From contig PLZD01000031.1 in assembly GCA_003151975.1 (NCBI GenBank), forward strand, positions 202,488-266,487: a stretch of 64,000 bases of DNA, given 5' to 3'. This DNA is from Elusimicrobiota bacterium (lineage in GTDB: Bacteria > Elusimicrobiota > Elusimicrobia > UBA1565 > UBA9628). Both the position numbers and the translations under genes were made by a program. How positions within the stretch are numbered: the first letter of the stretch is position 1; each line of letters begins with the position of its first letter. Of this stretch, positions 6,126 to 32,024 are shown one piece after another. The notes under the pieces were generated by a model. It saw nothing but the letters and a program-made list of their open reading frames with translations. It was not told where the DNA came from and ran no database searches.

Positions 6126-7931
6126 TTAAGCCGCATCCCCTTGAAGCGCCGGGCCGAGGTCCAATACCTGGCTCGCCGCCTTCAGAATACCCGCTCTGTG
6201 AGAAACGATAAGGACGGTGGTTTGGCCGGCGAGACGCTTGATCGTGTTGGCGATCTCGGCTTCGGTCGCGACGTCGAGATTGGCGGTCGCTTCATCCAGC
6301 ACCAGAAGCTTTGGCTTGCGCAAAAGAGCCCGGGCCAGCGCCAAGCGCTGCTTCTGTCCCGTCGATAGCCCTGTACCGTTCTCGTCAAGCCGGTATTCAA
6401 GGCCGCCGTCGAGCTTGCGAACCGTGTCGGCCAGCTGTGCTTGCTCGAGTGCCGACCAAAGCTCTTGCGGGGCTGGTTTCGGTGAGATTCCATACTCTAG
6501 ATTTTCCTCAAGGCTGCCATCCATCAGAAAGGGCTCGGCGCCAACATAGCCAAGGCTGTTTGCCGCGCTGTCGAAGTAAGACGACGGGAGGCTCCCATTG
6601 ATCTCTATCCTTCCCTCTGCGGGATCCACCATCCCGAGGATGAGAAGAAGAAGCGTGCTCTTGCCGGCGCCGCTTGGGCCTACGATCCCGGCGATATCGC
6701 CGCTGTTCACTTTCCAGGAGAGACGGTTGATGACCCGAGGCCGGTCGGACTCCCAGGCGAAAGAGACGTTCTCGAGGCGAATATCCGGCGGCGTTTGCGC
6801 GAGTGCTGTTGCGGGGGCGGCGTTTGATTGTCGGGAGCCGGCATCCAAGAGTTGCCGATAATTCCCGGGGTGGAACGAAAGCGCCGCGGCAAGCTCATCT
6901 TTGTCCAGCTTGTAAAAAAGCTCGACGGCCTCAGAGAACTGAGGCCAGAATTTCGTGACTGCGGCTACATACTGGCTCGCGTTGCCCATGTATTGCACGA
7001 GCCTCAGAAACAGATAGAGAACACTGATCAGAATCGAGGCCTTGGTCAGGAATATGGAGCGGCTCACATAAATGATTCCGGCGAAGAGGCAGATGCCGAA
7101 GAAGGGCGGCATTCCCAATATCATGGTATTGAAGGCGGACATACGCATAAGGACATTCGTGTATCCGAATATCTTGTCCAGGAGTCCGACGGATTCCCGA
7201 TTCTGAGTCCGGCTGATGCGCACAAAAAGCCAGTTCCGCGATACGCGCTCTACTCCCTTGGTGAAGCTGGCCTGGATCCCGGGGGCCAAGCGGGCGCTAT
7301 TAGCGAGACTTTGATTTGACATCGCCACGAGAATGCCGGTGATCCCGAAGCCCACAAGGCCGATCAAAGTCTCTTTCCACGCGAGATACAGCATGCCGGC
7401 GACCAAGAAAAAAGACTGGATCAGGGCGATGACGACGCTAAGCGCACTGAAGAGAAAGGTCTGGCTCTTCGGGTAGAGTTCGCCGACACGGTGATGCACG
7501 TCCGAGGCCGGCAGGAAATGGCGCCCTTTGCGCATCAGCATTTCGTACACGGTCACTTGTTTGAATCGGGCGCTGGCCATCTCCTGCGCGACGTCGTTGC
7601 CGTAAGCGGAGACGAAGAGCGCTATCGAACGGCAAGCTCCGATCAAGACCAGCATGCCGCAAAGTCCCACGGTGCTCAGCGAGACCAGCGGCAGCAGAAA
7701 GGCCGCTAACTGCGAGCGATCGAAATACCCAAGGCTGACCAAAAATAACTGGAGGAACGCGGCCAGTGCGTACTCGATCATGCTCAAGGCCAGCGAGCTC
7801 AAGAAACACGCAAGCAGCCAGCGCATGCCCTTGGGGCCAAGAACCCTGCGGAAACGAAACAGCGTGGAAAGGAATTCCGAGACTGAAAATTGACGAGGCA
7901 TTGGATTCGATTTTGCGCTCGATGCAATCAT
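6126..7931 (-). CDS. ABC transporter, fused permease and ATPase (MsbA/lipid-linked glycan exporter type)
   Basis: This 601-residue half-transporter has six predicted membrane helices in the first 340 residues. The nucleotide-binding domain follows: Walker A GPSGAGKST near 415, signature LSTGQKQR near 527, Walker B LLVLDEAT near 550, and H-loop VSHR near 580. It would work as a homodimer in the inner membrane. No Wzx flippase or Wzm/Wzt pair is visible in the operon, so this protein is the best candidate for moving the lipid-linked glycan or an attached lipid across the membrane. It starts within the stop codon of the upstream lipoprotein gene (ATGA). Confidence 0.88.
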   Translation of the reverse strand: MIASSAKSNPMPRQFSVSEFLSTLFRFRRVLGPKGMRWLLACFLSSLALSMIEYALAAFLQLFLVSLGYFDRSQLAAFLLPLVSLSTVGLCGMLVLIGACRSIALFVSAYGNDVAQEMASARFKQVTVYEMLMRKGRHFLPASDVHHRVGELYPKSQTFLFSALSVVIALIQSFFLVAGMLYLAWKETLIGLVGFGITGILVAMSNQSLANSARLAPGIQASFTKGVERVSRNWLFVRISRTQNRESVGLLDKIFGYTNVLMRMSAFNTMILGMPPFFGICLFAGIIYVSRSIFLTKASILISVLYLFLRLVQYMGNASQYVAAVTKFWPQFSEAVELFYKLDKDELAAALSFHPGNYRQLLDAGSRQSNAAPATALAQTPPDIRLENVSFAWESDRPRVINRLSWKVNSGDIAGIVGPSGAGKSTLLLLILGMVDPAEGRIEINGSLPSSYFDSAANSLGYVGAEPFLMDGSLEENLEYGISPKPAPQELWSALEQAQLADTVRKLDGGLEYRLDENGTGLSTGQKQRLALARALLRKPKLLVLDEATANLDVATEAEIANTIKRLAGQTTVLIVSHRAGILKAASQVLDLGPALQGDAA

Positions 7932-10900
7932 AGCTTTTCTTGATATTCGCCCGCTTTCAAAAGCCAGGCGGCGCTATTGACCCCATCCGACTGTGCCTCT
8001 TTGAGCAGAGCCTGGCCTTCGAGCTTAAGGGCCTCGTCCAAATCCTTGCGCTCTTCCAGGGTCCGCTTCAGCCCGAGCGCGACCCGGTAGTCGGTAAGCC
8101 CGCGAATCACGGTCCGATCGAGCTCGACAGAGCATCTCAGCTGCGCGTCTGTGGTCGACGAACACCAGGCCGCATCGCCCTCGCGGCCATCGAAATCAAA
8201 ATACGGGTTGCCCATATTCTGATTCCATATCCAAAGCAGACGATAGCGCACATCCGTCGATTGGCGCAGCCTGAACAGCCCTAGCCCTTCGTTATCGCGC
8301 GAGCTGTTGTTGTAGAAAGCCCAGGGAAACCGGATCTCATCCCGAGAAAACTCGTTCAAAAAGGGCAGGCCGACTTCGCGGATCAGATTCTTGATCGCCG
8401 ATGACGAGTCGCGCCCGATGCTCGTCGTGACGGACCACTGGACCGGCTGCTGAGCATCGACCTTGGGAAGATCCTTGAGCCGCTCGGAGAGCTCTTGGAC
8501 GGCGGCGCCGACAGGCTCATCGCATGCGATGAGCGCAAAGGGAAGCCAATCCCGAGCGCGGGCTTTGGCTTCAAGCAGATCGGTGAGCTGCTTGAGCCGG
8601 TCGGCTCCCGACAACACCGAATCCGCCTTAGGCCGCTCGCAAAGATTTTCCCCGCGAAACAAGTCGCCGTATCCGACCACGCCCCTAAATCCCAGCTCTT
8701 TGGCCATCGTCATCACGCGGTCGACTTCCGCGGTCTCCAACGAAAGCGTGCCGCCTCGAGCCGTGACTTGCATCCGAGGGGAGAATGAAAAAGCCGTTAT
8801 GCCCAGAGCCCGCATCTTGGACATGCTCTGCTTCTCGAGCTGCTCCGAACGAGGGCGGAGGACCGAATCGCCCCACCAATCTTCCGCTATGTTGCTGCCG
8901 AAAGGGCCGACCGGGAAATCCAGGTCGTCGGCTTGAGCTTTGAAAACGCGAAGCTCGAACGGAACTCGAACGGCCTGTCCCGCGCCGCGCGCGGAAACGA
9001 CAAGCACCGCAGGATAGAGGCCCGGATACGCGTCCTTCGGTGCCAGGAAACGCAGCCAAAGCCGCCCGAGATCCTTGTCTGGGAAAGTCCTCTGCTTCTC
9101 TTCCGTCACCCAGCGCTCCCTAACCGAATACAGGTTCCCAGTGTACGACTGCCTGAGCGCACGGTACTTGATCCAGCCTCCCTCGACCGCAAGAAAGGGG
9201 GGGAGCCCCTCGATGTGCCACCCGATCTCCGTGGGACCGCTTGCCTTCCAGCTCACGGCCGGGGCGAAGATTCCGTGCGAATTCCTGAAGATCGATAGCC
9301 GAGGTTTCGCCTGTGAAGCATCCGCGAAAGGCTGGACATCCGCCGCGCCAGCCTGGCTCAGGTCAATGTCGGCTGAAACGTTCCAGACCCGAAGCCCCGA
9401 AGGCATCGCGTCGAGACGGCCAGTCAGCGGCTTTGCCTTCAGCTGATACTGGCTGTGGAATTCCGCGCGCCGAGCCTCCCGCAATTGCGCGAGCCAGCGC
9501 TCGCCCAGCGTTCGCTCCGCGGGCGTATTGACCGGGAAGATGACGAGGGCGGAAAGGGCCAACCCAAAACAAGGTAGACCAATCTCTGGACAGCCGTGGT
9601 TCTCGAACTCGAGATCCAGATGTCCGTTTTCAACCTGGGTGTCGAAACTTTTTTCCTTTATGATCCTCGACCAGTAGAGATCGAAGAGATCGTCGCCCTC
9701 GTGGTCCTCGGCATCCTGCCATCTGAAGTAATCCGCCTTGGCCTGTTCAGGAGTCATGCGTTCGTCGAGAGCCAGCTTGCCCTGAGCTTTGACCGTCCTG
9801 CGATGATAATAGGGGTACTCGCCCCAGAAGCCGCCGGGATGATCGATGATCATCCAGACCCGGTAGGCGCCCGGCTTGAGATCAACGCGCAACTTCGCGG
9901 ATGCGATGGTCAGATTGCTGGCGGTCAGCTGATCGGGCGCCATGACACGATTGACTTGGGGGTAGGGCGCCCAGAAATTATGCTCAAGCCAGCCCCACTT
10001 CTTTGCCGGGTCGTAGGAAGTGTTCTCGTTAAGGGCTTCGAAGCCGTCGGGGACTCCGGCATCCTCGGGGCCGGCATGAAAAGCCAAGAGCCCCGGAACG
10101 CTTGTCTTTGCGGACCTCTTGAGCGCGATGCGACGGATTTCAACCGGCGCCCGATCGTTCTTATCGTCTCGGACAAGAGTCAACGAAACGACGTTCGCCG
10201 GATCAAGCTCCCGCCCGGGCCGGCCGGTCTCGCCGACCCTCAAGCGGGTAGGAATCTTGATCGATTGAAGCCCCGGTCCGACGATTTGCGGAAGATTGAC
10301 CCGCGTCCAGTAATCGTTCGATTGGCTGTCCTTGGCCTCGACGGTCAGGGGGATCGCTTGCGCGCCCGAATTGAAGAGTGTCATCTCCACGAAGTCGTAC
10401 GGAGACCAATCCATCGGCGCGGAGATCCCGCAATAGGCCTTCGCCCACACGATCACGCCATCGGAGCGGATTTCGAAGGTCCCGTTATTGATTTTATTGA
10501 TGCCCTTCGATGCGTCTACGATGACCATTTCTGCGGGGGAGGAGCGATCCCCGGAAGCATCCGTCTGGCCGGATTTCTTGAGCTCGATGCGCCGGATCTC
10601 GACCGGCGTACGATCATTCCCATCGCCGCGAGCGAGAGTCAACGAAAGGACATTCGAGTAGTCTAGCGCTCGCCCCGGCCTTCCTGTCTCTCCGACCCGC
10701 AGGCGGGTCGGCAGCTTGATCGTTTGAAGGCCGGGCCCGAGAATCTGAGGCAGGTTGACCCGCGTCCAGTAATCGCTTGATTGGCTGTCCTTGACCTCGA
10801 ATGTGAATGGGATGACTTGCGAACCAGGATTGTACAGGACCACCTCGACAAAGTCGAACTGGGACCAATCCATGGGGGCCGATATCCGGCAATAACCCTT

Positions 10901-11542
10901 CGGCCATACCAGCGTCCCGTCGGCGCGCTTCTCAACAGTTCCTTCGTTAACGTAATTGATGCCCTTGGATCCGTCAACGATGACTGGTCCGATCCGGAAA
11001 GACGAGCTTCCCGCGGCATCCATCTTGGAGGACTTCTTGAGTTCGATGCGTCGGATCTCGACGGGCGTCTCATCGTTCTTGCCTTCCCGCACAAGAGTCA
11101 ATGCGACGACTTTCGAGTCATCCAGCGCGCGCCCAGGCTTGTCGGCCTCACCGACCTTCAGGCGGGTGGGAAGCCTCATTGTTTGAAGTCCGGGGCCAAG
11201 AATTTGATGGGACAGGTTGACCCGGGTCCAGTAACCGCTCGATTGGCTGTCCTTGACCTCGAAAGAGAGCGAAATGGCCTGGGAGCCCGAGTTGTAGAGG
11301 GTCAGCTCCACATAGTCGTAGGGGGACCAATCCATGGGGGCGGAGATCCCGCAATATGACTTCGGCCACACGAGCGTTCCATCCGGGCGCGTCTCGCATG
11401 TCCCGTTGTTCACATGGTTGATTCCATGAGAAACGTCGACAATGACCGGACCAATGGGCTCGGAGCTGACACGGCATCCGGCCAGGACCGTGCACGCAAA
11501 AGCCCACAAGATCCGCCGCGCGCCGCCAAAGCTCGTCGTCAT
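7928..11542 (-). CDS. Large lipoprotein with three tandem repeats and DUF4091/GH123-like region
   Basis: The start is placed at the ATG at 11542, because it overlaps the TGA of the upstream GT4 gene (ATGA) and gives a short signal peptide ending in the lipobox LAGC. The mature protein would be about 1180 residues. Three near-identical blocks of about 140 residues follow the anchor, each running from VIVD.S.GIN to VEIRRI.LK and carrying ISAPMDWS and GPGLQ. They look like beta-sandwich carbohydrate-binding modules. The second half contains a large beta-rich region and a C-terminal segment resembling DUF4091 (GH123-like) barrels (FGSNIAEDWWGD, ALGITAF, LIACDEPVG). It is probably an exported glycan-processing or glycan-binding protein. 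Catalytic residues were not assigned. Confidence 0.72.
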   Translation of the reverse strand: MTTSFGGARRILWAFACTVLAGCRVSSEPIGPVIVDVSHGINHVNNGTCETRPDGTLVWPKSYCGISAPMDWSPYDYVELTLYNSGSQAISLSFEVKDSQSSGYWTRVNLSHQILGPGLQTMRLPTRLKVGEADKPGRALDDSKVVALTLVREGKNDETPVEIRRIELKKSSKMDAAGSSSFRIGPVIVDGSKGINYVNEGTVEKRADGTLVWPKGYCRISAPMDWSQFDFVEVVLYNPGSQVIPFTFEVKDSQSSDYWTRVNLPQILGPGLQTIKLPTRLRVGETGRPGRALDYSNVLSLTLARGDGNDRTPVEIRRIELKKSGQTDASGDRSSPAEMVIVDASKGINKINNGTFEIRSDGVIVWAKAYCGISAPMDWSPYDFVEMTLFNSGAQAIPLTVEAKDSQSNDYWTRVNLPQIVGPGLQSIKIPTRLRVGETGRPGRELDPANVVSLTLVRDDKNDRAPVEIRRIALKRSAKTSVPGLLAFHAGPEDAGVPDGFEALNENTSYDPAKKWGWLEHNFWAPYPQVNRVMAPDQLTASNLTIASAKLRVDLKPGAYRVWMIIDHPGGFWGEYPYYHRRTVKAQGKLALDERMTPEQAKADYFRWQDAEDHEGDDLFDLYWSRIIKEKSFDTQVENGHLDLEFENHGCPEIGLPCFGLALSALVIFPVNTPAERTLGERWLAQLREARRAEFHSQYQLKAKPLTGRLDAMPSGLRVWNVSADIDLSQAGAADVQPFADASQAKPRLSIFRNSHGIFAPAVSWKASGPTEIGWHIEGLPPFLAVEGGWIKYRALRQSYTGNLYSVRERWVTEEKQRTFPDKDLGRLWLRFLAPKDAYPGLYPAVLVVSARGAGQAVRVPFELRVFKAQADDLDFPVGPFGSNIAEDWWGDSVLRPRSEQLEKQSMSKMRALGITAFSFSPRMQVTARGGTLSLETAEVDRVMTMAKELGFRGVVGYGDLFRGENLCERPKADSVLSGADRLKQLTDLLEAKARARDWLPFALIACDEPVGAAVQELSERLKDLPKVDAQQPVQWSVTTSIGRDSSSAIKNLIREVGLPFLNEFSRDEIRFPWAFYNNSSRDNEGLGLFRLRQSTDVRYRLLWIWNQNMGNPYFDFDGREGDAAWCSSTTDAQLRCSVELDRTVIRGLTDYRVALGLKRTLEERKDLDEALKLEGQALLKEAQSDGVNSAAWLLKAGEYQEKL
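10112..10525 (-). repeat. Coding repeat 3 of 3
   Basis: Third copy, after a linker of about 15 residues. It ends in PVEIRRIALKR just before the LLAFHAGPED segment that opens the second half of the protein. Confidence 0.9.
10571..10993 (-). repeat. Coding repeat 2 of 3
   Basis: Second copy, separated from the first by a linker of about 12 residues. It is very close in sequence to copy 1 and carries CRISAPMDWS in place of CGISAPMDWS. Confidence 0.9.
11030..11455 (-). repeat. Coding repeat 1 of 3 (about 140 residues)
   Basis: First copy of the tandem module in the lipoprotein. It shares VIVD, GIN, PMDWS, YWTRVNL, ILGPGLQ, PTRL.VGE and PVEIRRIELKK with the other two copies. Confidence 0.9.
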
Positions 11543-12705
11543 ATGGTCACGCCCAGCTCCGCGTAGATTTCCTTCAATCGGCCCAGCCACCGCGCCTGCG
11601 AAAATTCCCTAGAAATCCGCTCCTTCAGCCTACGGCCCTGAGCCTCAAGAGTTACCTGGCCTTTCTCGGACAGGAGTGCCGCGATACGACGCGCGGACTC
11701 CTCAATGGGCTCGTGCGGCGCGACGCCGACGCCGTAGCGTTCGTCTGGGATCAAATCTTTTACTCCGCCGACGAGCGTGCTCATCACGGGGGTTCCCGCC
11801 CAACCGGCTTCGATCAAATTGATCGGGAGACCTTCCGCCTTGGAAAAAGACAGAAGCAGATCCAAGCCGGCCAATTCTCCACCGACGTTCTCCCTGTAGC
11901 CCATCCAGACGATGCGGCGTTCAAGCCCGAGCCGGCGTGCCTTTTCCCGTAAGGGACGCTCCAGGTCACCGAGCCCGAATATCAGGCATCGCCAATCCGC
12001 CGGGCAGCCGTCTTTCTCCAGGCGCGCCAGGACCCGCAGCAGGCGGTCATGGTCCTTCTCCGCGGAGAGGCGTCCGACGACGCCAAAAAGAAACAGGGAT
12101 TCGGGCGAGTTTTCCCGCGGAAGCCAGGCCGCGCGGATTTTCTTGCCCTCATCGCGGCGTCGGTCAAAGTCGACTATGCGCCCGTCGACGCCGTTCAGGT
12201 GGAGGCGAAGCGCGTCCGCGCCGACGCCCGAAGCGCGCACCGTCTCGTAGTCTTCCGTCGAGACGCATAGGACGCGGTCGAAGAGGCGCAGAAAGAATCG
12301 GCGGTAGAGAATTTCATAGAGGCGGGTCTTGAAATCGGGCAGGCCGCGCACGCCGTGATGGGTGGAGACCATTGGAGGCGCCGGGCGCAGGCCGCGGCGG
12401 CTGAGAGCGGTGTAGACGGAGGCCTTCAGCGCGTGGGCATGGACGAGTTCGGGTTTGGCTTCCGCGATAAGGGCGCGCAAACGTCGAATCGCGCCGCCAT
12501 CCCACCGGCCGCCGACCGGAACGGCGGCGTAGGGCAGGCCTAGGGACCGACTCAGGTCTTTCAGAGGGTCGCTCTCGCGCAGCCGCTCCAGCCGCCCTTC
12601 CAGCAGGTTCACGATCATGAAGCGGCCTCGATAACCGGCCAATGGGGGCAACACCAGCCGTTCCGGGCCGCTGATGACGCTGGTGTTGAAAACGTGAATG
12701 ATCAC
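11539..12705 (-). CDS. Family 4 glycosyltransferase
   Basis: A GT-B enzyme of 388 residues starting at GTG (12705), which overlaps the TGA of the small remnant upstream (GTGA). The N-terminal acceptor domain has VISGPERLVLPPL and VHAHALKASVYTALSRR. The donor domain has FGVVGRLSAEKDHDRLLRVL, LIFGLGDLERPLREKA and the E-x7-E-like motif KAEGLPINLIEAGWAGTPV. Enzymes of this type are retaining GTs that act on lipid-linked oligosaccharide at the cytoplasmic face. Its first and last segments match the two ends of the 38-codon remnant at 13864-13980, so the two genes were paralogues. Confidence 0.88.
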   Translation of the reverse strand: MIIHVFNTSVISGPERLVLPPLAGYRGRFMIVNLLEGRLERLRESDPLKDLSRSLGLPYAAVPVGGRWDGGAIRRLRALIAEAKPELVHAHALKASVYTALSRRGLRPAPPMVSTHHGVRGLPDFKTRLYEILYRRFFLRLFDRVLCVSTEDYETVRASGVGADALRLHLNGVDGRIVDFDRRRDEGKKIRAAWLPRENSPESLFLFGVVGRLSAEKDHDRLLRVLARLEKDGCPADWRCLIFGLGDLERPLREKARRLGLERRIVWMGYRENVGGELAGLDLLLSFSKAEGLPINLIEAGWAGTPVMSTLVGGVKDLIPDERYGVGVAPHEPIEESARRIAALLSEKGQVTLEAQGRRLKERISREFSQARWLGRLKEIYAELGVTI

Positions 12706-12890
12706 AAATCCGGATGTGCGGCTATCTCACGATAAAGTGGGCTCGCATTTCCTGGCTTTTTACAGGTTTCCCGCCCGGACGGCTTCCATTGGTCGTCGGA
12801 GTCCAAGAACGCCACGGAGTTCCCCGTCGCCATGCGCAGACCATCCTGCGGTGCGTCGTTGACGACGACGCCGACCAGATCGACCTTCAT
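12702..12890 (-). pseudogene. Gutted GT2 glycosyltransferase remnant (62 codons)
   Basis: The frame starts at an ATG overlapping the stop of the upstream GT2 gene (ATGA) and ends at a TGA overlapping the GTG of the downstream GT4 gene (GTGA). It encodes MKVDLVGVVVND, then SVAFLDSDDQWKP (the GT2 D-x-D region), then PLYREIAAHPDL. The usual segments between and after these pieces are missing, so it cannot be a working GT-A domain. I read it as a GT2 gene that lost internal parts while keeping both coupled ends. A functional microprotein cannot be excluded. Confidence 0.65.
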
Positions 12891-13867
12891 GAGCCTCGCC
12901 GCCCGGCGCGCCATGCCGCAGCCAGCAGGGCATGCGCGCGGGCCAACCCGAACGCCGCGTGCAGCAGTGTCAAAGGGATAAGATAGCCCCATTTCCCGCG
13001 TCGAGCCGCGAGGCGCATGCTGAGGAGAGCCGCAGGCGCCATCAGCGCCGCGACAAAGAACGCAGGCGCGGCGGGTCTTCCCGACCGGAAGGCCAGCACC
13101 GCCCCGATCGCGAAGCCCAGAAGGCATATCAGAGTGTAGGCCCCGAAAAGGATCGGCCGGGGATTGGTGATTTTCGGAAGGCTGCGCAGAAAAACGCGCA
13201 GGCCGTCGGTCGCGCGCCAAAGATCCTTCCTGTAGAACTGAACCAATGTTTGCGGGTTGTCTAGGTGCACCACGGCCACGGCGGCGTCGCCGACGACGCG
13301 CAGACCGGCGGCGCGCACGCGCTCGCACAGCTCGCAATCCTCGTTGGTCTGGATCGACTCGTCGAAGCCGCCGATGCGCTCGAACGTTGCGCGCGTCATG
13401 ATCATGTCGCACCCGGGAACCCACGCGAGATCGCCTTGCCTCTCGGCGTCCATCCCTTCATACCAGGACCGGGCGACCCAGCTCGACTCCTCGGGAACGC
13501 GGAAGTGAGCGCCCAGCACCCCCGCGCCGTCGCGCGCCAGGAGGTTCGTCGCCGTTTTCAGCCACTGCGGGGGTACGGCGCAGTCGCAGTCCAGGAAGAT
13601 GAGAATATCGCCGCGCGCCGCGGCCGCTCCAAAGTTGCGCACCGCGGAGACCCACACCCCGGGCTTGCGCAGGACGGTCAGGTTCAGCGACGATGAGAAC
13701 GACCGTGCGACCTCGAGCGTGCGGTCGGTTGAGCCGTTGTCGACGAATACGACCTCGAAAGAATCTTTGGGAAAATCCTGGAGCGCCAGCGATTGCAGGC
13801 AATGCCCGACGAAGCGCTCCTTGTTGAGGGCCGGGATGACGATCGAAACGGCGCAGTTCCGGCTCAA
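12887..13867 (-). CDS. Family 2 glycosyltransferase with C-terminal membrane helices
   Basis: The start is a TTG at 13867 that overlaps the stop of the remnant upstream (TTGA). The 326 residues begin with VSIVIPALNKERFVGHCLQS and VVFVDNGSTDRT. The D-x-D region is LIFLDCDCAVP. GGFDESIQTNEDCELCERVR is the catalytic ED segment. From about residue 225 there are three membrane helices (FGAYTLICLLGFAIGAVLAF onward) and a basic tail. This is the pattern of polyprenyl-linked glycan GT2 enzymes. Its N- and C-terminal segments are the parental type for the frameshifted remnant at 18584-18864. Confidence 0.87.
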   Translation of the reverse strand: MSRNCAVSIVIPALNKERFVGHCLQSLALQDFPKDSFEVVFVDNGSTDRTLEVARSFSSSLNLTVLRKPGVWVSAVRNFGAAAARGDILIFLDCDCAVPPQWLKTATNLLARDGAGVLGAHFRVPEESSWVARSWYEGMDAERQGDLAWVPGCDMIMTRATFERIGGFDESIQTNEDCELCERVRAAGLRVVGDAAVAVVHLDNPQTLVQFYRKDLWRATDGLRVFLRSLPKITNPRPILFGAYTLICLLGFAIGAVLAFRSGRPAAPAFFVAALMAPAALLSMRLAARRGKWGYLIPLTLLHAAFGLARAHALLAAAWRAGRRGS

Positions 13868-13980
13868 AGGGCGGCTCCCAGCTCCGCGTAATGATCCTTC
13901 AGCCGGCCCGCCCAGCCGCCTCTCGACAATCCAGCGACAACGCGCTCCGGCCCGCTGACAATGGCCCGCGATTCACTCAT
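13864..13980 (-). pseudogene. Gutted GT4 glycosyltransferase remnant (38 codons)
   Basis: It starts at an ATG overlapping the acetyltransferase stop (ATGA) and ends at a TGA overlapping the TTG of the GT2 downstream (TTGA). The first part, AIVSGPERVVAG, matches VISGPERLVLP at the N-terminus of the intact GT4 at 11539-12705. The second part, WAGRLKDHYAELGAAL, matches WLGRLKEIYAELGVTI at that protein's very C-terminus. So both ends of a GT4 remain, joined in frame, and about 350 internal codons are gone. Confidence 0.8.
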
Positions 13981-14657
13981 AGAGTCTTGACCACGCGCGC
14001 CGGGTTGCCGGCGATGATGCTGCGTTCCGCATAGGAACCCGCTAGGACGACCGCCCCGGACGCCACGATGCAGCCGCTGCCGATTCGCGCGCCTTTCAAG
14101 ATCGTGGCGTTGGCTCCCACCCAGACATCGTCCCCGATCTCCACGGGCTCCCCGGGGAAAGTCCAAACAAAGTCCTCCGAGAACGGAGCGTCCGAAAAGC
14201 GAGGACGAAATCCGGCGCAAATGGCTTCGATTTGCTTTCGCCGGGTTGCCGCGTCCACCGGATGCGGATCAAAGTCCTGTATGAAAACATTCCAACTGCT
14301 GATGAAGCGGCCTCCGATTTTCACGCCATATCTGGAAACGATCCGGATATCGCCCAGGATGGAGCACGGGCCGATGTCGATTCTCCCTTTGCCGTACGCC
14401 GCGATCTCCGCTTTCTCATAGATGATCGAGTGTTCGCCCACCGATATGCGGGCGTCCGGCCGCTCGGCATTGATGCAGCGGAACTTCTGAAGGCGTACGT
14501 TGCGCCCTAATTCAACAAGCTCTCGGTCGGGCCCGAAGAAAGGCATCAGCAGGGCCGTCCTTTGAAAGAGCGCGTAACCGCGGAGGTTGGCAAAAAATGC
14601 GGAGGGGCGATTTCGTAAGATCCAAAACGCCTTGCTGATCAATCCCTTCGGTTTCAT
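13977..14657 (-). CDS. Left-handed beta-helix O-acetyltransferase (hexapeptide repeat family)
   Basis: The start is set at the ATG at 14657 (MKPKGLISKAF), which overlaps the upstream TGA as ATGA. Longer in-frame extensions run into the neighbour and are unlikely. The 226-residue product has imperfect hexapeptide repeats (ISVGEHSIIYEKAEIAAYGKGRIDIG and later IGDDVWVGANATILKGARIGSG) and the common ending IIAGNPARVVKTL. FISSWNVFIQDFDPHPVD carries the His of the acetyl-transfer site. Such trimeric cytoplasmic enzymes transfer acetyl from acetyl-CoA to sugar hydroxyls (CysE/LacA/WbbJ group). Its role here is probably to decorate the repeat unit. Confidence 0.85.
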   Translation of the reverse strand: MKPKGLISKAFWILRNRPSAFFANLRGYALFQRTALLMPFFGPDRELVELGRNVRLQKFRCINAERPDARISVGEHSIIYEKAEIAAYGKGRIDIGPCSILGDIRIVSRYGVKIGGRFISSWNVFIQDFDPHPVDAATRRKQIEAICAGFRPRFSDAPFSEDFVWTFPGEPVEIGDDVWVGANATILKGARIGSGCIVASGAVVLAGSYAERSIIAGNPARVVKTL

Positions 14658-15865
14658 GACGCGTGATCCTCCGGACAGTATAAAAGTGAATACGCCCTGC
14701 TCATATGCGTCAACTCGTAGCGCAAACGGACCTCGCTGCCCTTCTGCCATGCCCGATTAAAGAAGTCCTCTCCACCAGCCGCGATTTCCTCCATCATCTT
14801 TTCCACCATGCGGGCCCCTTTGGCGGGATCTCCGAGCGGATATTGATAGCTGTATGCCTTAACGACTTCATGACCCGGGATCTCGGAGAGGACCAGCGGC
14901 AGGCCGGCTCCGGCCGCCTCGATGGGTCCCAGCGGCATGCCCTCGAACTCGGAGCAGGACAACGCGAGATCGGCGCAGCCCAGCCAAAGTTCCGGGTCAT
15001 GAGTCGTTCCCAGATACAAAATTCGCGACGAATCCGGCGCGGAAGCGATGCCCGATCTCAGCTGCTTCACCCGCCCAGCCTCGCTTTCCGGCCCGACGAA
15101 AAGAAGGACGCTTTTCTTGCGCAGGAGGGGGGACATCTGTCCCCAAAGTTCCAGGGCATGATCTTGACCCTTGGTCCTATGAAGGCGGGCCATGTAGAGC
15201 AGCCAACGGCAATCAAGGAAAGGGGCAAGAGCAGCCTGAGTCGATGCGTCCAGCAAGCCGAGCAATTCCTTCCTCTTTTTCCTTCTGCTATCGGCGCTGA
15301 CGGCGCCATGCTCCGGGAAGCGCACGCCATTGGAAACAATGTGGAGCCTTGTTCGTGGGATTCCGAGCTTCACATATGTTTCCTGAGTATCGGCCGATAC
15401 CACCGACAGTTCGTCGGCGAATCGCACGAAGAAGCGTTCGTAGTACTTGTATATCCACCTCCTGGATAAGTGGATGAATGAATGCTGCGTGTGGACCAAT
15501 CTCACGCGTCCGAAGGTCAAAAGCTTGGCGCAGGCGCCGTAGATCAGAGCGCCCAAGTCGTGCGTATGGATGACAGGAATCTTCTCAACGATCAGCTTCC
15601 GGCGGATATTTAAAACGGTGCGCAGTGAAAAGCCGGGTGGTTTCAAGAATCTGGTCACCGGGATCCCCGCGCTCGCGAACGCCGGCCCGAGATCGTTCTC
15701 CGGCCCCGCGTCGGGAATTCGATCGAAGACGAATACCTCGGGATCCCATTCGCCATGCGCCTTAAGCGCGCACGACAGATTGAAGATCATGCGCTCCAAT
15801 CCTCCCATATGAAGATATTGGGTCAGCATAAGAACCTTTCGGGGTTTCGGTTCTCGCTCAGGCAT
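14654..15865 (-). CDS. Family 4 glycosyltransferase
   Basis: The start is taken at the ATG at 15865 (MPEREPKPRKVLML); an ATG four codons upstream is also possible. The product is about 403 residues with a GT-B fold. MLTQYLHMGGLERMIFNLS is the glycine-rich N-terminal loop. LYMARLHRTKGQDHALELW and the donor motif SEFEGMPLGPIEAAGAGLPLV mark the C-terminal domain. It overlaps the end of the phosphotransferase-like gene by 8 bp and couples to the acetyltransferase by ATGA. It probably extends the same lipid-linked glycan. Confidence 0.88.
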   Translation of the reverse strand: MPEREPKPRKVLMLTQYLHMGGLERMIFNLSCALKAHGEWDPEVFVFDRIPDAGPENDLGPAFASAGIPVTRFLKPPGFSLRTVLNIRRKLIVEKIPVIHTHDLGALIYGACAKLLTFGRVRLVHTQHSFIHLSRRWIYKYYERFFVRFADELSVVSADTQETYVKLGIPRTRLHIVSNGVRFPEHGAVSADSRRKKRKELLGLLDASTQAALAPFLDCRWLLYMARLHRTKGQDHALELWGQMSPLLRKKSVLLFVGPESEAGRVKQLRSGIASAPDSSRILYLGTTHDPELWLGCADLALSCSEFEGMPLGPIEAAGAGLPLVLSEIPGHEVVKAYSYQYPLGDPAKGARMVEKMMEEIAAGGEDFFNRAWQKGSEVRLRYELTHMSRAYSLLYCPEDHAS

Positions 15866-18587
15866 CACGCGCCCCACCTTCAGCCGATCCCCTGATCAGC
15901 AGGAGTTTATAGCAGGCATAGCCGCAGGCTATGAGCACGAGCATCCCTCCGTGAAATACGACCTGAACCATGCTCATCGAAAGCCGTCTTTCGTTCGCGC
16001 CGTAAGAAAGCGCCAATTCAAGAGCGGCCTCGAGCAGAGAGGCCGTAACAAGGGCGAAGGATGTCGCGACCAGCCGTGTCTCGCCGCGACGGTACCGCGA
16101 GTTGTTGAAGGCCAGCGAATAGACCATTATCGAGGCGCAAAGCATCTTCCCCACCACAAGACTGACGGGCAACCACAATGCGACGTCCTTGCTCATGGCG
16201 GCGAACCCGCTATGAGTGTCCAGGTTGCCCAAGCTGTAGGGGGGGCCGCCGATATGCCCATAACTGTCCAAGATGCCGTAACGAATGTAGGCCAATACGA
16301 GCGCGCCGATGAGCACCACTGTGACATCGTCGGGTCCGCCGCCGTTATCGGTGCCGATGAAGAAGAAGGCCGAGCCGAACAGGAGCACTGAAAGAAAATC
16401 CACCCCCGGGCTCATCAAATAAAGAATGGAAAGCATCAGCGCCGAGACCGCCCGATGGTGGTCGCCGCAGGGCACCCAGCGAAGCGATATAACGGTCAGC
16501 GCTGCGACATGCCCCGCCAGACTGATCCAAAATGTGGCCTCCCCGGGGTATAAGTGGTAAAGGAGGGCCGTCCCCAACGGGACGATGCAGACGCGCAAAC
16601 TGTCCGTCGCCCAGGCAAAAGAGAATGAGGCTGCTCCCGCCAACAGCAGGGCCACGCTTTGCATCCTATCGCCATCCATCAAGTGTCCCACATTAATAAA
16701 ACCGAAGGCCCAAAGTGGAAGCAGACATAGGAGCGCCGGAACGAGCCAACGACGGGCGTGCCCGGCTTTGATGACGCAGAATCCGACCAGAATCGCCCCC
16801 GCCGCGAAGGCATATAGGTAACGCGTAAGCAGGCGTTCGCCGGCCCAGCCGAAGGCGAACCGCTGTGTGATCAGGAAAAACAATGAAAGCGCCGCGAAAG
16901 CGCCAGTTGTCTCGAGCCAGCTGCGGTGGTTTGAGCGCATCCCTACGACAACGACAGCGCAAAGGAGGACGGGGACTATTTCCAGGGGCTGCAGGATGCC
17001 CAGCGCGAGAAGCAGCAACGGGATGATGCCAAGCTCCGCCCCCGTCGGAAACGCCGGCACGCGGATGCGATTGGTCCGGAGGAGCCAATAAGCGCCGGCC
17101 ACGAGGACGGACGCCGCTATTCCGACTGGAGCGGCCAGATGGAACAAGAACTTTCCGCCCAGAGCGAATCGCAGACCGGAGACCGTCAAAATGACAATGG
17201 CTCCGGCCAGACAGAACATGGCACCTAGGCGTTCTCGCCTTTCGCGAAGTCCAAAGATCGCAGTCGACACAAGGCCGAGTTCGATCGAAGCGAGAAGACC
17301 AAGCGTGACCAAGCGAAAACTCGATGTGCTCGCCAGGATAAGGAGCAGAACACACCCTAAGCCGAAGCAAAGAGTCTCCCCCGAAACGGTCGTGATCGTT
17401 GTCAGATAGACCGCTGTCATCGCCAGGAAGAGAACGAGGATCCATCCGAGCATTCCCGGATCCGGTTTGGAACTGATGTCGACAGCGGCCATCAGCTGGC
17501 GCGCGGCCTTTTCGGATAGATGCATCGCGCCGCCGTAGTCGCCGCTGTCCAGGGCCTTTTGCGCTTCGGCCTCGGCGGCTTGCACCTCGGGATGGCCGAC
17601 ATCCAGGAAACCCGCCAGCGAATCGAGCCGCCGCAGGTTTGCCAGCGCCAGTTGAGCCTCTTTTCCGATGGGAAGGTCCAGAAAACCGGGGGGAAGAGGT
17701 TGAAGTATCCCTCCGGGAAGCCTCGTGCCAAGTAACACCGCCAGCGCCAGCGGCAGTTGACGGCCCGACATCTCAAAGTCGTGAATGGGACGGATGCCCG
17801 CCCCCAGAAGCACGAGCGGCACTCGGCGGTAGATATCGTCGCTGCCCCCGTGGCTGCCGTACCGGTCGTTGCCGTGGTCGGAGGTCACGATGAAGGTTGT
17901 ACCCGGATCAATGACATCGTCGAAAAAGCCCTTAAGTTCGGCGTCGACCTGCCGGATCAGATCCTTATACTGCTCCCTCTCCGTGCCATATTGATGAGCG
18001 ATAAAGTCGGTTCGCGCGATGTGCAGGACGACAAACGCCGACCGGTCCTTCGACAGTAGGCGCGCCCGGGCTTTGGACATCGCGACGGCGTCGTCGGCGA
18101 AAAAGTTATGCGATTCGGCACGGCCTGGTTGAGATTTGGCCCGATCTCCCAGGAGATCGGGCCATGAGTGGTCGCCGTAGAAGGCGACCTCCTCGCCGCG
18201 CGCCACGAGCTCGTCGAATACGGTCCAGTGTTCGAACGGCTTCTGGGCGAACAAGGCCAACGTATCGCGGAAGCTGGACGCCGTCCCGACGGTCATGGCG
18301 CGCACGCCGGCCGTCGTCACCGTTTCGGGCGGCGCGATCATGACTCCCGAGGCCCCGCGCGCGGCCAAGGCGACCAGATTGGGCATGATGGTCGGGTCTG
18401 TGCCCACGCGGACGGGCATGGAGTCCAATATAACTAGGACAACGCGATGGCTGAGCCGCGGGACTCCGCTTTCGAGCGGCGGCAACGCGCTCGGATCCTT
18501 GCTCTCGAGCTGAACGTGTAGCGCGTCCGAGAAGAACCCCACAGCGAGGAAAACCACGAAGACAGTGCAGGAAACCGTCGCTCTCAT
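15858..18587 (-). CDS. Alkaline-phosphatase-fold membrane enzyme resembling GPI ethanolamine-phosphate transferases
   Basis: The 909 residues begin with a signal-anchor (1-20) and an exported alkaline-phosphatase-superfamily domain up to about 330. The metal site starts at VLVILDSMP (Asp55), with a PPETVTTAGVRAMTVG segment near 87-101 supplying the Thr nucleophile. It closes with ARTDFIAHQYG (near 196), TSDHGND (near 235) and GSHGG. This motif set resembles eukaryotic PIG-N/PIG-O/PIG-G. The rest is a membrane domain of about 14-16 helices, also as in PIG-O. It probably transfers or removes a phospho-substituent on the glycan outside the inner membrane. Its ATG overlaps the stop of the upstream remnant. 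Confidence 0.75.
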   Translation of the reverse strand: MRATVSCTVFVVFLAVGFFSDALHVQLESKDPSALPPLESGVPRLSHRVVLVILDSMPVRVGTDPTIMPNLVALAARGASGVMIAPPETVTTAGVRAMTVGTASSFRDTLALFAQKPFEHWTVFDELVARGEEVAFYGDHSWPDLLGDRAKSQPGRAESHNFFADDAVAMSKARARLLSKDRSAFVVLHIARTDFIAHQYGTEREQYKDLIRQVDAELKGFFDDVIDPGTTFIVTSDHGNDRYGSHGGSDDIYRRVPLVLLGAGIRPIHDFEMSGRQLPLALAVLLGTRLPGGILQPLPPGFLDLPIGKEAQLALANLRRLDSLAGFLDVGHPEVQAAEAEAQKALDSGDYGGAMHLSEKAARQLMAAVDISSKPDPGMLGWILVLFLAMTAVYLTTITTVSGETLCFGLGCVLLLILASTSSFRLVTLGLLASIELGLVSTAIFGLRERRERLGAMFCLAGAIVILTVSGLRFALGGKFLFHLAAPVGIAASVLVAGAYWLLRTNRIRVPAFPTGAELGIIPLLLLALGILQPLEIVPVLLCAVVVVGMRSNHRSWLETTGAFAALSLFFLITQRFAFGWAGERLLTRYLYAFAAGAILVGFCVIKAGHARRWLVPALLCLLPLWAFGFINVGHLMDGDRMQSVALLLAGAASFSFAWATDSLRVCIVPLGTALLYHLYPGEATFWISLAGHVAALTVISLRWVPCGDHHRAVSALMLSILYLMSPGVDFLSVLLFGSAFFFIGTDNGGGPDDVTVVLIGALVLAYIRYGILDSYGHIGGPPYSLGNLDTHSGFAAMSKDVALWLPVSLVVGKMLCASIMVYSLAFNNSRYRRGETRLVATSFALVTASLLEAALELALSYGANERRLSMSMVQVVFHGGMLVLIACGYACYKLLLIRGSAEGGARDA

Positions 18588-18864
18588 TTTCGCACCAACG
18601 CATACACCAACGCATGCCCGCGCGCTAGGCCGAACGCCAAATGCAGCACCGTCAACTGGCCGACACTCACCCAGCTATTTCGCTTGGCCGCAATGATTCG
18701 GCGATCTCCACCGCGCGGTCGGTCGAGCCGTTGTCCACAAGGATGACCTCGAAGCGGTCCCGGGGGAAATTGAGCTTCGTCGGAGCCTGCATGCATCGCC
18801 CTATGACATGCTCCTCGTTGAGCTCCGGGATTTCGATGGAAACGCACCCGTTCAAGAGGCTCAG
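18584..18864 (-). pseudogene. Gutted, frameshifted GT2 glycosyltransferase remnant
   Basis: The first part reads VSIEIPELNEEHVIG and FEVILVDNGSTDRAVEIAES, the N-terminus of a GT2 like the gene at 12887-13867. After SEIAG there is a TGA. In the next frame the sequence reads WVSVGQLTVLHLAFGLARGHALVYALVRK, which matches the C-terminal helix of the same GT2 family (LLHAAFGLARAHALL). About 230 internal codons are missing. The TGA at 18669-18667 overlaps a GTG in the second frame (GTGA), and the final TGA overlaps the ATG of the next gene. The start is either a CTG overlapping the upstream stop or a TTG at 18855. Confidence 0.78.
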
Positions 18865-20273
18865 GACCCATTCTTCAGCTTCTCCCTGACGCCGTTGGAG
18901 GCGACGATGAGTCCCGTTAGCATATAGTTGTCCAAGGTGTAGGTATGGGATAGAAAGGTTATGCATGCGACGTACCCAGCCAGTGAGTAGAGTTGTTCCG
19001 GCCGTTCCTCTCTATGGCTCCAAGCTATGCGGAAAACCGATTTGAAATATGCGCAATAGAGGAATAATCCCACGAATCCAGACTCGCCGAGGGCCAGGAA
19101 CCAGCTGGAGTGAGCCGTTCTGCTGCCATATTCGTAGATCGTTCCGATCGCATACGACATATAGTTGTCATTGAACTGATGGTAGCCCACGCCCAAGAAA
19201 GGGCTGTGCAATGCCATGTTAAGACCTGAACCCCACAGAGTGATGCGGCTATCAGAGGACGTAGACATTTCCTCCTCGTCCCGGGGCACCAGCTTCATGG
19301 CCCCATAATATGCAACGCCGACGAAGCAGGCCATTAAAATCAGGCTCAGTCGAAGCCTCTTGGCCCGTGCGCGGCGGTAGACCAAGAATTGCACAGCGAG
19401 CCCAAGCATGGTGCCGCGGGAGCGCGTAAACCAGATCACGATTGCGGCAAAACCGGCATATAACAGCCCGCCCAGCCTCCCGAACGGATTGGCCCTTTTC
19501 TTGAACCAGGCCGCCAACGCGAAGGGCAATGCCATGACAATGATGGCTCCCAGATCGTTGGGATCCCCCAGCAAGTTGTAAGGCCTGCCGAATACAAGCC
19601 GCCCCTCCACCATTTCACCGGCAGCGAATTGGTATAGTCCGTTGGCCATGAGCAGGAGGCTGCTCAGTACCAGGGTAAGCTCGAACTCCCGCACGCTGCA
19701 TTCGCTTTCGATGAAAACGATTGCGATTCCCCAGACCGTGAGCGACTTGAAGTAGGTATTAAAATAATCCAATATCACCGCGGCCCTGCCCGGGACCTTG
19801 ATCGTCGTCAGTAGAAGCCAGCCGCTGAAACCGAGCAGATACATCACGCTGCGGATGTTCCGGCGGTCGAATTTGCCGCGCTGCTTCGGATGAATCAGGT
19901 ACGAAACGACGCAAAGGACGATAGTGAGCCGGGGTAAGATCGTCAGCAACGGATCCATGATATTTAGCTCCCAAGGCCTTAGCAGCATGAGATGGGCCAT
20001 GAAGCAAAGGGCGTTGACGGGGTGCAGCAGCGAGAGGCAAATACCCACGGCAATCTCGAGGCCTAACAGCGGATCCGTGCCCCGGAACACGCCCATGAAT
20101 CCGAGGGCCATGAAAATGAAGCAAAGCGGCAGCCATTGAATCGGGGCCAACGCGCCATGCGCGTCGTAGTCGGGCGCCGCAGCGCGCATGAGCTGAAATC
20201 TCGCCACCATGATCAGGAAAAGGAGAATGACTCCCGTTTCCATGTGCAGGTATGCGACCTGGGTCGGATTCAT
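18861..20273 (-). CDS. O-antigen ligase/polymerase family membrane protein (Wzy/WaaL-like)
   Basis: A 470-residue protein with about 11 predicted membrane helices and one larger periplasmic loop near residues 330-400 (SRITLWGSGLNMALHSPFLGVGYHQFNDNYMSYAIG). The G-x-G-x-H/N pattern in that loop is typical of the O-antigen ligase domain. Such proteins join polyprenyl-linked glycan repeats (polymerase) or attach the chain to an acceptor (ligase) on the outer face of the inner membrane. It is the only polymerase/ligase candidate in the operon. A possible internal promoter (GCTACAAT) lies in the 64-bp gap just upstream. Confidence 0.82.
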   Translation of the reverse strand: MNPTQVAYLHMETGVILLFLIMVARFQLMRAAAPDYDAHGALAPIQWLPLCFIFMALGFMGVFRGTDPLLGLEIAVGICLSLLHPVNALCFMAHLMLLRPWELNIMDPLLTILPRLTIVLCVVSYLIHPKQRGKFDRRNIRSVMYLLGFSGWLLLTTIKVPGRAAVILDYFNTYFKSLTVWGIAIVFIESECSVREFELTLVLSSLLLMANGLYQFAAGEMVEGRLVFGRPYNLLGDPNDLGAIIVMALPFALAAWFKKRANPFGRLGGLLYAGFAAIVIWFTRSRGTMLGLAVQFLVYRRARAKRLRLSLILMACFVGVAYYGAMKLVPRDEEEMSTSSDSRITLWGSGLNMALHSPFLGVGYHQFNDNYMSYAIGTIYEYGSRTAHSSWFLALGESGFVGLFLYCAYFKSVFRIAWSHREERPEQLYSLAGYVACITFLSHTYTLDNYMLTGLIVASNGVREKLKNGS

Positions 20274-22406: not shown

Positions 22407-23825
22407 TCAGGAGAACGTCGGTTCCGGGGTCCCGAGCTTGTACTTGCGCTCGTACGTGGTGCTCAGGTCGAGGACCCACCCAGCGTCGGCAGGCAGCGGC
22501 ATCACCGGGGACGGGATCGCGTTGACCGTGGCATCGCTGATCAGCACGCGCTTGATGGTCTTCAGGATAATGCTGACATCCAGCCCGAAGGACCAGTTCT
22601 TGACGTAATAGAGGTCGTAGTGAAGCCGCTCGATGGCGCCGGTGACGGTCGTGGTGGCGCGGTATCGCACCTGGGCCCAGCCGGTCAGGCCAGGCTTTAC
22701 CAAGTGCCGCAGATGGTTGCTGGGCACGGATTTCTCCAGCGTTTCCACCTCTTTCATCCACATCGGGCGCGGTCCCACGAGGGACATATCTCCCTTCATA
22801 ACGTTCCAGAGTTGGGGGAGTTCATCGAGACGGAACCTCCGCAACATGTCTCCCAACCAGGTCACGTGGGCATCGTGAGCGTTCTCGCCGGGCAAGCCAG
22901 ATCGAGCATCGGCTCCAGCTCTCATAGTGCGGAATTTCCAAAGTGTGAAGGGCTGACCCAAAAAGCCGGCGCGCTGCTGCGTGAAGAAAATCGGCCGGCC
23001 GTCGCAGATGGCGATGAGAACGGCGGTCACGGCCATCGCGGGGGCCAAGGCCAGCGTCAGCAGGATCGCGCCGACCACATCTATGGTCCGCTTGGCTACC
23101 GAGTAGACGCCGTGGCGCTTGGGCATGATGAACTCCAGCGCCCAAGAGGGGCTTGCCGCATAGTAAGGCGAGACCTTGCCGAAAATTGATTCGTAGAAGT
23201 CTTCCATCGTGACGATGGGAACACCGCGCGCCATCGCCGCAAGGATCACGTCGCGGGCCGCCTCCCAGTTTTGGTCGACCCAAGGAGCGTCGGCCACCAC
23301 GATGTCGACGCCGGGCCATTGCCAGGGAACGACCTTAAGACCGGTGTCGCGAGTATGGTGGTGCATGCCTTTTTCGATCTCGCGCAGATGCTCCTCGTCG
23401 CCGAGGAAGACGAAGCGCTGGTCTAGCAGGTCGAAGTTCAGCATCCACAACCAAGCCCGGCGCCAGACGAAAATCAGCGCATGGGAAATGACGACCGCGA
23501 GGATCAGGTGGGTCTTGGGCTTGAGCTCGGTGGCGATAGCGTAAAAATAGGTCATACCCAGCAGCATGCACGCCGCCATCGAGAAGAGCAGGTTCCGGAC
23601 GAGCGCAACGCTGTCCCGGGCCACGCGGAGTTCGTACAGGCCGACGGTGAAGATCGCGGCGATCCAGCTCAAGAACAAGGGCAGGAACAACAACGCCGTC
23701 GTCAGGTTTACGAGCTCTGGTTCCCGGAAGCTCAGCGTCATCGCGAGGGCGAGATAGAAAATGATGAAGTCAACGACCGGCGGAAGCAGCCAGCGCCAGG
23801 TGTACCGGCTTGCAAAGCTGCTCAT
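22407..23825 (-). CDS. Polyprenyl-phosphate sugar-1-phosphate transferase (initiating enzyme of EPS synthesis)
   Basis: The 472-residue protein has four N-terminal membrane helices, a Rossmann-like middle region (RFVFLGDEEHLREIEKG), a fifth hydrophobic segment (about 245-270) and the C-terminal catalytic domain. Diagnostic motifs are FFTQQRAGFLGQPFTLWKFR, RRFRLDELPQLWNVMKGDMS, LVGPRP and KPGLTGWAQVRY. It belongs to the WbaP/WcaJ/CpsE polyisoprenyl-phosphate hexose-1-phosphate transferases, which load the first sugar on undecaprenyl phosphate. As first gene after a good -10 box it opens the operon. A C-terminal extension of about 40 residues is not part of the usual domain. Confidence 0.92.
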   Translation of the reverse strand: MSSFASRYTWRWLLPPVVDFIIFYLALAMTLSFREPELVNLTTALLFLPLFLSWIAAIFTVGLYELRVARDSVALVRNLLFSMAACMLLGMTYFYAIATELKPKTHLILAVVISHALIFVWRRAWLWMLNFDLLDQRFVFLGDEEHLREIEKGMHHHTRDTGLKVVPWQWPGVDIVVADAPWVDQNWEAARDVILAAMARGVPIVTMEDFYESIFGKVSPYYAASPSWALEFIMPKRHGVYSVAKRTIDVVGAILLTLALAPAMAVTAVLIAICDGRPIFFTQQRAGFLGQPFTLWKFRTMRAGADARSGLPGENAHDAHVTWLGDMLRRFRLDELPQLWNVMKGDMSLVGPRPMWMKEVETLEKSVPSNHLRHLVKPGLTGWAQVRYRATTTVTGAIERLHYDLYYVKNWSFGLDVSIILKTIKRVLISDATVNAIPSPVMPLPADAGWVLDLSTTYERKYKLGTPEPTFS

Positions 23826-27072: not shown

Positions 27073-27909
27073 TCACTTGGCATTCCAGGTTCTTGAACGG
27101 CACCAAACAACCACTCGCTGGAACATCCGCTCGCGGTCGTCGGCGAAAGTGTAGGTGTGATCGGCGTTCGGGTAATAATCCACCTCGATATTGCCGCGTG
27201 GGTCCAGCCCCTTGAATTGGTCGAAGAACTGGCCGGCATAGTTATAGTAGTCTTCGACCCCGCCGCTGTAGATGTAGAGGAATTGCGCGCCGCGATCGAC
27301 AAGAGATTGGATTTCCCGCTCCACCCGGGATCTTGGTCCGAACGGCTCCCGAAGCTGTTGGAGTGGTGAGACGCGGTTCCTAGGCGCTTCTCCCGAGCCA
27401 TAGAGAATGCGTCGAACGCGGTTTATCCATGTCTGGGCCCGAAAAACGCGGGGAAGGTAGTAATTCACGTAGCTTCGCGGCGTCCAGTAGCCATATGCAT
27501 CGAGGAGAACCGCTCCGGCGACGCGCGGGTCACGCAGCGCGACCTCATGAGAATTATCTGCGCCGGAACAGGTCCCGAAGAGCACGAAGCGGTGGATATC
27601 GTGCTCGCGTTCCAAAAAGTCCATCGCACTCTTGATGTCCGAGATGGTTCGATCCTCAGTGGATCCCGCATCAGTCGATACTTCGCTGTCGCCGTAGCCG
27701 CCCATATCGAAGCGCAAGCTGCGGATTCCGCATTCCGAGAGCCGATGCGCGAGAGAGACCGACATCCTGTGGGGCCCAACGCGGTGCAAAAGCCCCGCAT
27801 TGAGCATCAGCACGGCCGGGAAGTCCGGGCGCGCGTCATCCTTGGCAGGTCCACTTAGAATCCCGACGAGATTGAGCTCAGGCCCGAACTGGACAACGCG
27901 ATCCTTCAT
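27073..27909 (-). CDS. Alpha/beta hydrolase with Cys at the nucleophile elbow (exosortase-system hydrolase 1-like)
   Basis: The 278-residue protein has an alpha/beta-hydrolase fold: NAGLLHRVGPHRMSVSLAHRL, FDMGGYGDSE, nucleophile elbow FGTCSG (G-x-C-x-G with Cys114 where Ser is usual) and a late NADHTYTF giving the likely catalytic His251. The motif layout resembles the 'exosortase A system-associated hydrolase 1' group. Its ATG overlaps the stop of the upstream A-PCP-hydrolase gene. It may release or transfer an acyl or aminoacyl group from the carrier domain of that protein. The Cys suggests a thiol-based acyl-enzyme, as in dienelactone hydrolase. Confidence 0.75.
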   Translation of the reverse strand: MKDRVVQFGPELNLVGILSGPAKDDARPDFPAVLMLNAGLLHRVGPHRMSVSLAHRLSECGIRSLRFDMGGYGDSEVSTDAGSTEDRTISDIKSAMDFLEREHDIHRFVLFGTCSGADNSHEVALRDPRVAGAVLLDAYGYWTPRSYVNYYLPRVFRAQTWINRVRRILYGSGEAPRNRVSPLQQLREPFGPRSRVEREIQSLVDRGAQFLYIYSGGVEDYYNYAGQFFDQFKGLDPRGNIEVDYYPNADHTYTFADDRERMFQRVVVWCRSRTWNAK

Positions 27910-30620: not shown

Positions 30621-30648
30621 GGATTAGGGGCCCCGTCGTCGGGCAGCT

Positions 30649-31800: not shown

Positions 31801-31894
31801 TGTCCTTGATCTCGGAAGTGGGAGAGGACTTCATGCGATCATCAACGTGCGGCCTCCACGACGGCCGATCTTCGCGCCACTGATCCCATAGCTC

Positions 31895-31923
31895 ATTGTA
31901 TGGTAGTAAATTGCAAACTCCAA
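31895..31923 (-). promoter_or_regulatory. Promoter upstream of the acyl-CoA dehydrogenase gene
   Basis: On the minus strand TTGGAG, a 17-bp spacer and TACAAT lie about 95 bp before the ATG at 31800, inside the 224-bp gap after etfA. The rest of the gap (31801-31894 and 31924-32024) shows no gene. Confidence 0.55.
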
Positions 31924-32024
31924 ACTCCGACAGCGATGGCGCGGTCAGCACGCCACTCCAGATTATGTGATGGGTTCGGTGATCTCGGCCGATCGAGCAA
32001 AGAATTTCGCGGATCGATGGGCGC

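Follow-up and report, generated by a model that had tools for sequence, protein, structure and literature searches.

In streptococcal capsule (cps) loci, remnants such as the 5' remnant of aliD and, in 33X, orf1 (wcrG/wzx) have been ascribed to recombination together with gene loss (PMC5111408, PMC10782959). Functional gene pairs are known to be coupled by termination-reinitiation at ATGA or TGATG overlaps (PMC6728339, PMC10666635, PMC12548453), and in Haloferax a premature stop abolished downstream translation in nine gene pairs tested (PMC6728339). A dead gene serving as a link in such coupling was not found in the literature searched. Here, we describe three short glycosyltransferase (GT) remnants that sit among intact genes of the same (minus) strand in a long polysaccharide operon in the window, i.e. 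the whole stretch of 64,000 nt that was analysed (genome G000, contig C53, positions 202488-266487). Like the streptococcal cps remnants, they are short leftovers of larger genes within a polysaccharide locus; unlike in streptococcal cps, two of them keep both ends of one gene, all of them overlap both neighbours in register, and for two of them the operon still contains an intact relative. The 4-nt overlaps that join the remnants and their neighbours are identical to those of termination-reinitiation pairs; however, those pairs are functional genes, whereas the overlaps here involve gene remnants.

The operon and its remnants

Because a polyprenyl glycosylphosphotransferase is encoded in it, the operon is of the exopolysaccharide type. 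This gene is followed by genes for a deacetylase, a GT2, a Wzy-type protein and a 909-aa phosphodiesterase-like protein and, after the latter, by genes for a GT4, a hexapeptide transferase, a GT2 (P0003) and a GT4 (P0001) (Table 1). P0001 starts with GTG exactly where its homologue in G050, a relative of the same class, starts with ATG. We note that a 1220-aa protein without a Pfam match is encoded downstream of P0001 (window 7928-11590), and that the region upstream of the operon (window 27906-32990) encodes an NRPS-like adenylation protein (27906-30620) together with an acyl-CoA dehydrogenase and an electron transfer flavoprotein subunit.

Table 1 Remnants and operon genes, with positions in the window
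Feature	Position	Strand	Basis or remark
Polyprenyl glycosylphosphotransferase	22407..23825	-	TIGR03025 above cut-off; PF02397
O-antigen ligase/polymerase-like gene (Wzy_C)	18861..20273	-	Adjoins remnant 3 on the upstream side
Remnant 3, N-terminal part, 65 GT2 codons + TGA stop	18667..18864	-	Pfam + homology
Remnant 3, C-terminal part, other frame, last GT2 helix	18584..18694	-	Homology to P0003 C-terminus
909-aa protein, phosphodiesterase/metalloenzyme-like domain	15858..18587	-	Downstream of remnant 3
Intact GT4	14654..15877	-	Domain match; 36% to G050 gene in same cluster
Hexapeptide-repeat transferase	13977..14750	-	Upstream of remnant 2
Remnant 2, GT4 pseudogene, 38 codons, in frame	13864..13980	-	SGPER segment + C-terminal GRLK..YAELG segment
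Intact GT2 (P0003), remnant 3 paralogue	12887..13867	-	TTG start overlaps remnant 2 stop
Remnant 1, GT2 pseudogene, 62 codons	12702..12890	-	Pfam match; overlaps both sides
Intact GT4 (P0001), remnant 2 relative	11539..12705	-	GTG start

The sequence-only reading had taken remnant 3 for the start and the last helix of a GT2 like P0003, and the comparisons bear this out. Specifically, the N-terminal part (18670-18864) matches Pfam Glycos_transf_2 (E 4.8e-9) and the N-terminus of P0003 (53% over 57 aa, E 5e-16), and the C-terminal part (about 18587-18694) matches the C-terminus of P0003 (54% over 35 aa, E 3e-7). Remnant 2 had been described as joining the ISGPER and GRLK..YAELG segments of a GT4; both segments match, the N-terminal part by the motif SGPER[LV]V, which is common to P0001, and the C-terminal part by its similarity to the C-terminus of P0001 (48% over 27 aa, E 2e-4), but the first six codons are not homologous to a GT4 start. 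The motifs at the ends of remnant 2 are those of P0001 and of the G050 GT4, and the GT4s that adjoin the GT2 in Terriglobia-class genomes have ends unlike it. At the DNA level, remnant 2 forms a 51-nt direct repeat (73%) with 11539-11589. Both ends of one full-length family with the middle missing were, therefore, found for remnants 2 and 3.

In remnant 1, the GT2 core reads ATGNSVAFLDSDDQW, and Pfam Glycos_transf_2 (PF00535) matches residues 16-38 only, with an E value of 5e-4 that is below the curated cut-off. Homology support is limited to the N-terminal half, and the sequences examined contained no protein homologue of the last 24 aa; that remnant 1 also keeps its other end is unproven. 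We note that its tail (12709-12749) resembles an intergenic stretch on another contig of this genome (C40, 52710-52749; L002 1501-1540) over ~36-40 nt (85%, BLAST E 3e-5), and that the 15-nt exact core of this match occurs at only those two sites in the genome. A shared repeat or RNA element was considered for this tail; the searches gave this intergenic match and no Rfam family.

Relatives, paralogy and proposed history

In G050, a homologue of the Wzy-type gene (43%) is directly followed by an intact GT2 (L015 12121-13053) in the position of remnant 3. This GT2 is 57% identical to remnant 3 and about 55-57% identical to P0003, and further along the same cluster lies a GT4 that is 58% identical to P0001. 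Full-length orthologues were sought in 341 genomes of the phylum and found in G050 alone. Thus, the full-length counterpart that the sequence-only reading had proposed to look for in related genomes was recovered at the matching position for remnant 3, but no syntenic relative was found for remnants 1 and 2. The tree places remnant 3 as the sister of P0003 (UFBoot 90), apart from the G050 and Terriglobia-class homologues, and this grouping assigns both genes to this lineage. Identity between the remnants and their paralogues at the DNA level is only 61-68%, which is too low to resolve microhomology at the deletion joints.

The GT2 subfamily is rare in the phylum (two of 341 genomes). Among 399 genomes from the class of a Terriglobia genome, 11 carry it, there with a different GT4 partner. 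Because the GT2 of G050 is nearer to the Terriglobia-class gene (67% to the GT2 of genome G435, L123 9146-10030) than to P0003 (55%), the comparison suggests that the glycan module was transferred horizontally between distant lineages. We also observed that in G050 (C74, L015 9535-13107) the GT2 by the Wzy homologue and a glycoside-hydrolase-123-like region lie in one frame of 1190 aa, possibly as a fusion protein of the GT2 or owing to a lost stop codon.

The homologies between remnant 3 and P0003 and between remnant 2 and P0001 imply that a GT2 and a GT4 were each once doubled and that one of each was gutted. Beyond the observed homology, positions and overlaps of the remnants and the paralogy of remnant 3, we infer an intact ancestor at each remnant site. 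Our working hypothesis is that internal deletions gave rise to the three GT pseudogenes in an exopolysaccharide operon whose genes overlap tightly, as follows. The operon would have acquired two copies each of one GT2 and one GT4 subfamily, of which one copy each was gutted (giving remnants 3 and 2, respectively) while P0003 and P0001 were kept intact; remnant 1 would be what is left of a third, separate GT2. The deletions would have been tolerated because the copies were redundant, and, judging from their intact relatives in the operon, this redundancy of remnants 2 and 3 may be the cause of their loss. The deletions would have halted before the gene ends, which hold the stops and starts of the neighbours and, after remnant 2, an RBS, with polarity on downstream genes presumably adding pressure against loss of the ends. 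We consider it probable that such a recent pruning of redundant GTs, with the ends pinned by overlapping neighbours, explains the remnants, and the locus at present would then be a snapshot of redundancy pruning in a polysaccharide operon.

Overlaps, coupling and random deletions

Direct reading of the DNA confirmed six four-base overlaps. Remnant 1 shares ATGA (12887-12890) with the upstream gene and GTGA (12702-12705) with the downstream gene; remnant 2 shares ATGA (13977-13980) with the upstream gene and TTGA (13864-13867) with the start of P0003; and remnant 3 contains an internal GTGA (18667-18670) and ends in ATGA (18584-18587). The GTGA restart proposed for the frameshifted remnant 3 was thus found, with GTG at 18668-18670 as the possible start. 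The assertion that all remnants keep ATGA, GTGA or TTGA overlaps is correct for these six junctions but not for the entry of remnant 3, where the sequence at the stop of the upstream Wzy-type gene is CTGA, not TTGA, and the closest in-frame codon of a usual start type, a TTG, comes only three codons later. Except for this CTGA entry, same-strand stop/start overlaps of 1 or 4 nt are present at the remnant junctions. The wider description of gutted GT genes with both coupled ends, therefore, stands as far as GT identity is concerned and holds for most junctions, but not for the CTGA entry or the first codons of remnant 2, and it is unproven for the tail of remnant 1. Among same-strand gene pairs sampled in this genome, 93 of 311 overlap by 1 or 4 nt.

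The sequence-only reading had gone further and invoked selection on operon translation, in which case only deletions that kept a path for translation survived and the remnants act as coupling linkers. Indeed, all three remnants retain a path from the upstream stop to the downstream start, remnant 3 by way of its GTGA restart, and strict coupling at overlaps is known in other organisms (PMC6728339). SD pairing after remnants 1 and 3 (-3.3 and -2.8 kcal/mol) is no better than random (median -2.8 kcal/mol) and, because this pairing is poor, the genes after these two remnants plausibly depend on coupling, a dependence with which the poor pairing agrees but which it does not prove; SD pairing before the start of P0003, inside remnant 2, is -6.5 kcal/mol. 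However, when 20,000 internal deletions were placed at random in each of five operon genes, 33% of the deletions were in frame and 14-28% gave a coupled restart, so that in 47-61% the way to the native stop stayed readable by one or the other route. When frameshift deletions like that of remnant 3 were simulated in P0003, a coupled restart resulted in 47%. With this baseline, a path kept in three of three remnants has a chance of about 10-22%, and the remnants thus do not significantly exceed random deletions in keeping the path. Because a TGA stop that follows A, G or T always gives ATGA, GTGA or TTGA, a GTGA restart is nearly free, and the outermost bases are kept because the start and stop codons of the neighbours lie in them. 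We conclude that the kept ends alone do not show selection for operon translation.

The open frames might still have been maintained after gutting, and their age bears on this. A codon model that divides the remnant branch into a constrained and a neutral phase gave a neutral change of 0.07 substitutions per codon (upper limit about 0.6) for remnant 3 and of about 0 (upper limit about 0.5) for remnant 2, and the expected number of stop codons was about 0.08 and at most about 0.7; of note, 80 codons (remnant 3) and 31 codons (remnant 2) with saturated synonymous sites make a weak clock. Because the model puts little neutral change after gutting, the open frames need no selection, and they would be too young to reveal maintenance. 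On loss of constraint at the protein level the signals differ: there is a surplus of amino-acid changes against the paralogue, contrary to a short neutral phase, and in amino acids remnant 3 has a branch 2.7 times as long as P0003 (0.85 vs 0.31), which could mean a longer unconstrained period. A short age of the guttings is thus supported but weakly so.

Surveys of other sequence also bear on selected linkers. Tight packing of a short ORF between same-strand genes was seen only four times in 442 kb of this genome, and remnants 1 and 2 account for two of the four, which is more than expected by chance. A survey of 783 kb, mostly GT-rich and largely from relatives, likewise gave four such short ORFs, none of them a recognisable remnant, and gap blastx in the GT loci of relatives added no clear coupled remnant. 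A general habit of the clade was, therefore, rejected, as neither the short-ORF survey nor gap blastx gave anything comparable, and no second case supports linkers in these related loci. The three remnants in 6 kb are a local event, an oddity of a known kind. Given the simulated deletions, the young frames and ends forced by the neighbours, we regard selection for translation through the remnants as unlikely, and slightly more doubtful still that genes in tightly overlapping operons are lost by interior deletion such that the dead gene stays as a translatable bridge, with three selected linkers here. Were selection responsible for the kept ends, the way in which bacterial genes die would be set by operon architecture, and a remnant would count as evidence of coupling; as it is, the locus is a warning that chance alone yields matching overlaps and restarts in G+C-rich operons.

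Assembly and coding capacity

The sequence-only reading had considered that collapse of strains during assembly could give the same pattern; collapse of strains or paralogues in a metagenome bin would yield joints present in no cell. The draft genome consists of 68 contigs and has an estimated contamination of 3.62%, and a recent loss, as inferred above, is compatible with strain variation. However, the longest exact match of a remnant spans 14-15 nt elsewhere in 442 kb and 8-14 nt in the GT genes compared, including the paralogue; because exact matches are at most 15 nt, no k-mer of usual length could bridge joints there. Moreover, the remnants diverge from the intact paralogues along their whole length, and three independent false joints would be needed within 6 kb of a 301-kb contig. 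We conclude that the remnant joints are probably real and that an artefact is very unlikely.

That the remnants encode functional small proteins, as might be suggested by open frames that span 38-65 codons and overlap a gene on either side, is the least credible explanation, because most of the GT fold is absent, remnant 3 has a frameshift, residues of the hydrophobic core are changed (VSIVIPALN to VSIEIPELN), and the coding scores of remnants 1 and 2 are 3.9 and 3.3 as opposed to 15 and 35 for the other two double-coupled small genes.
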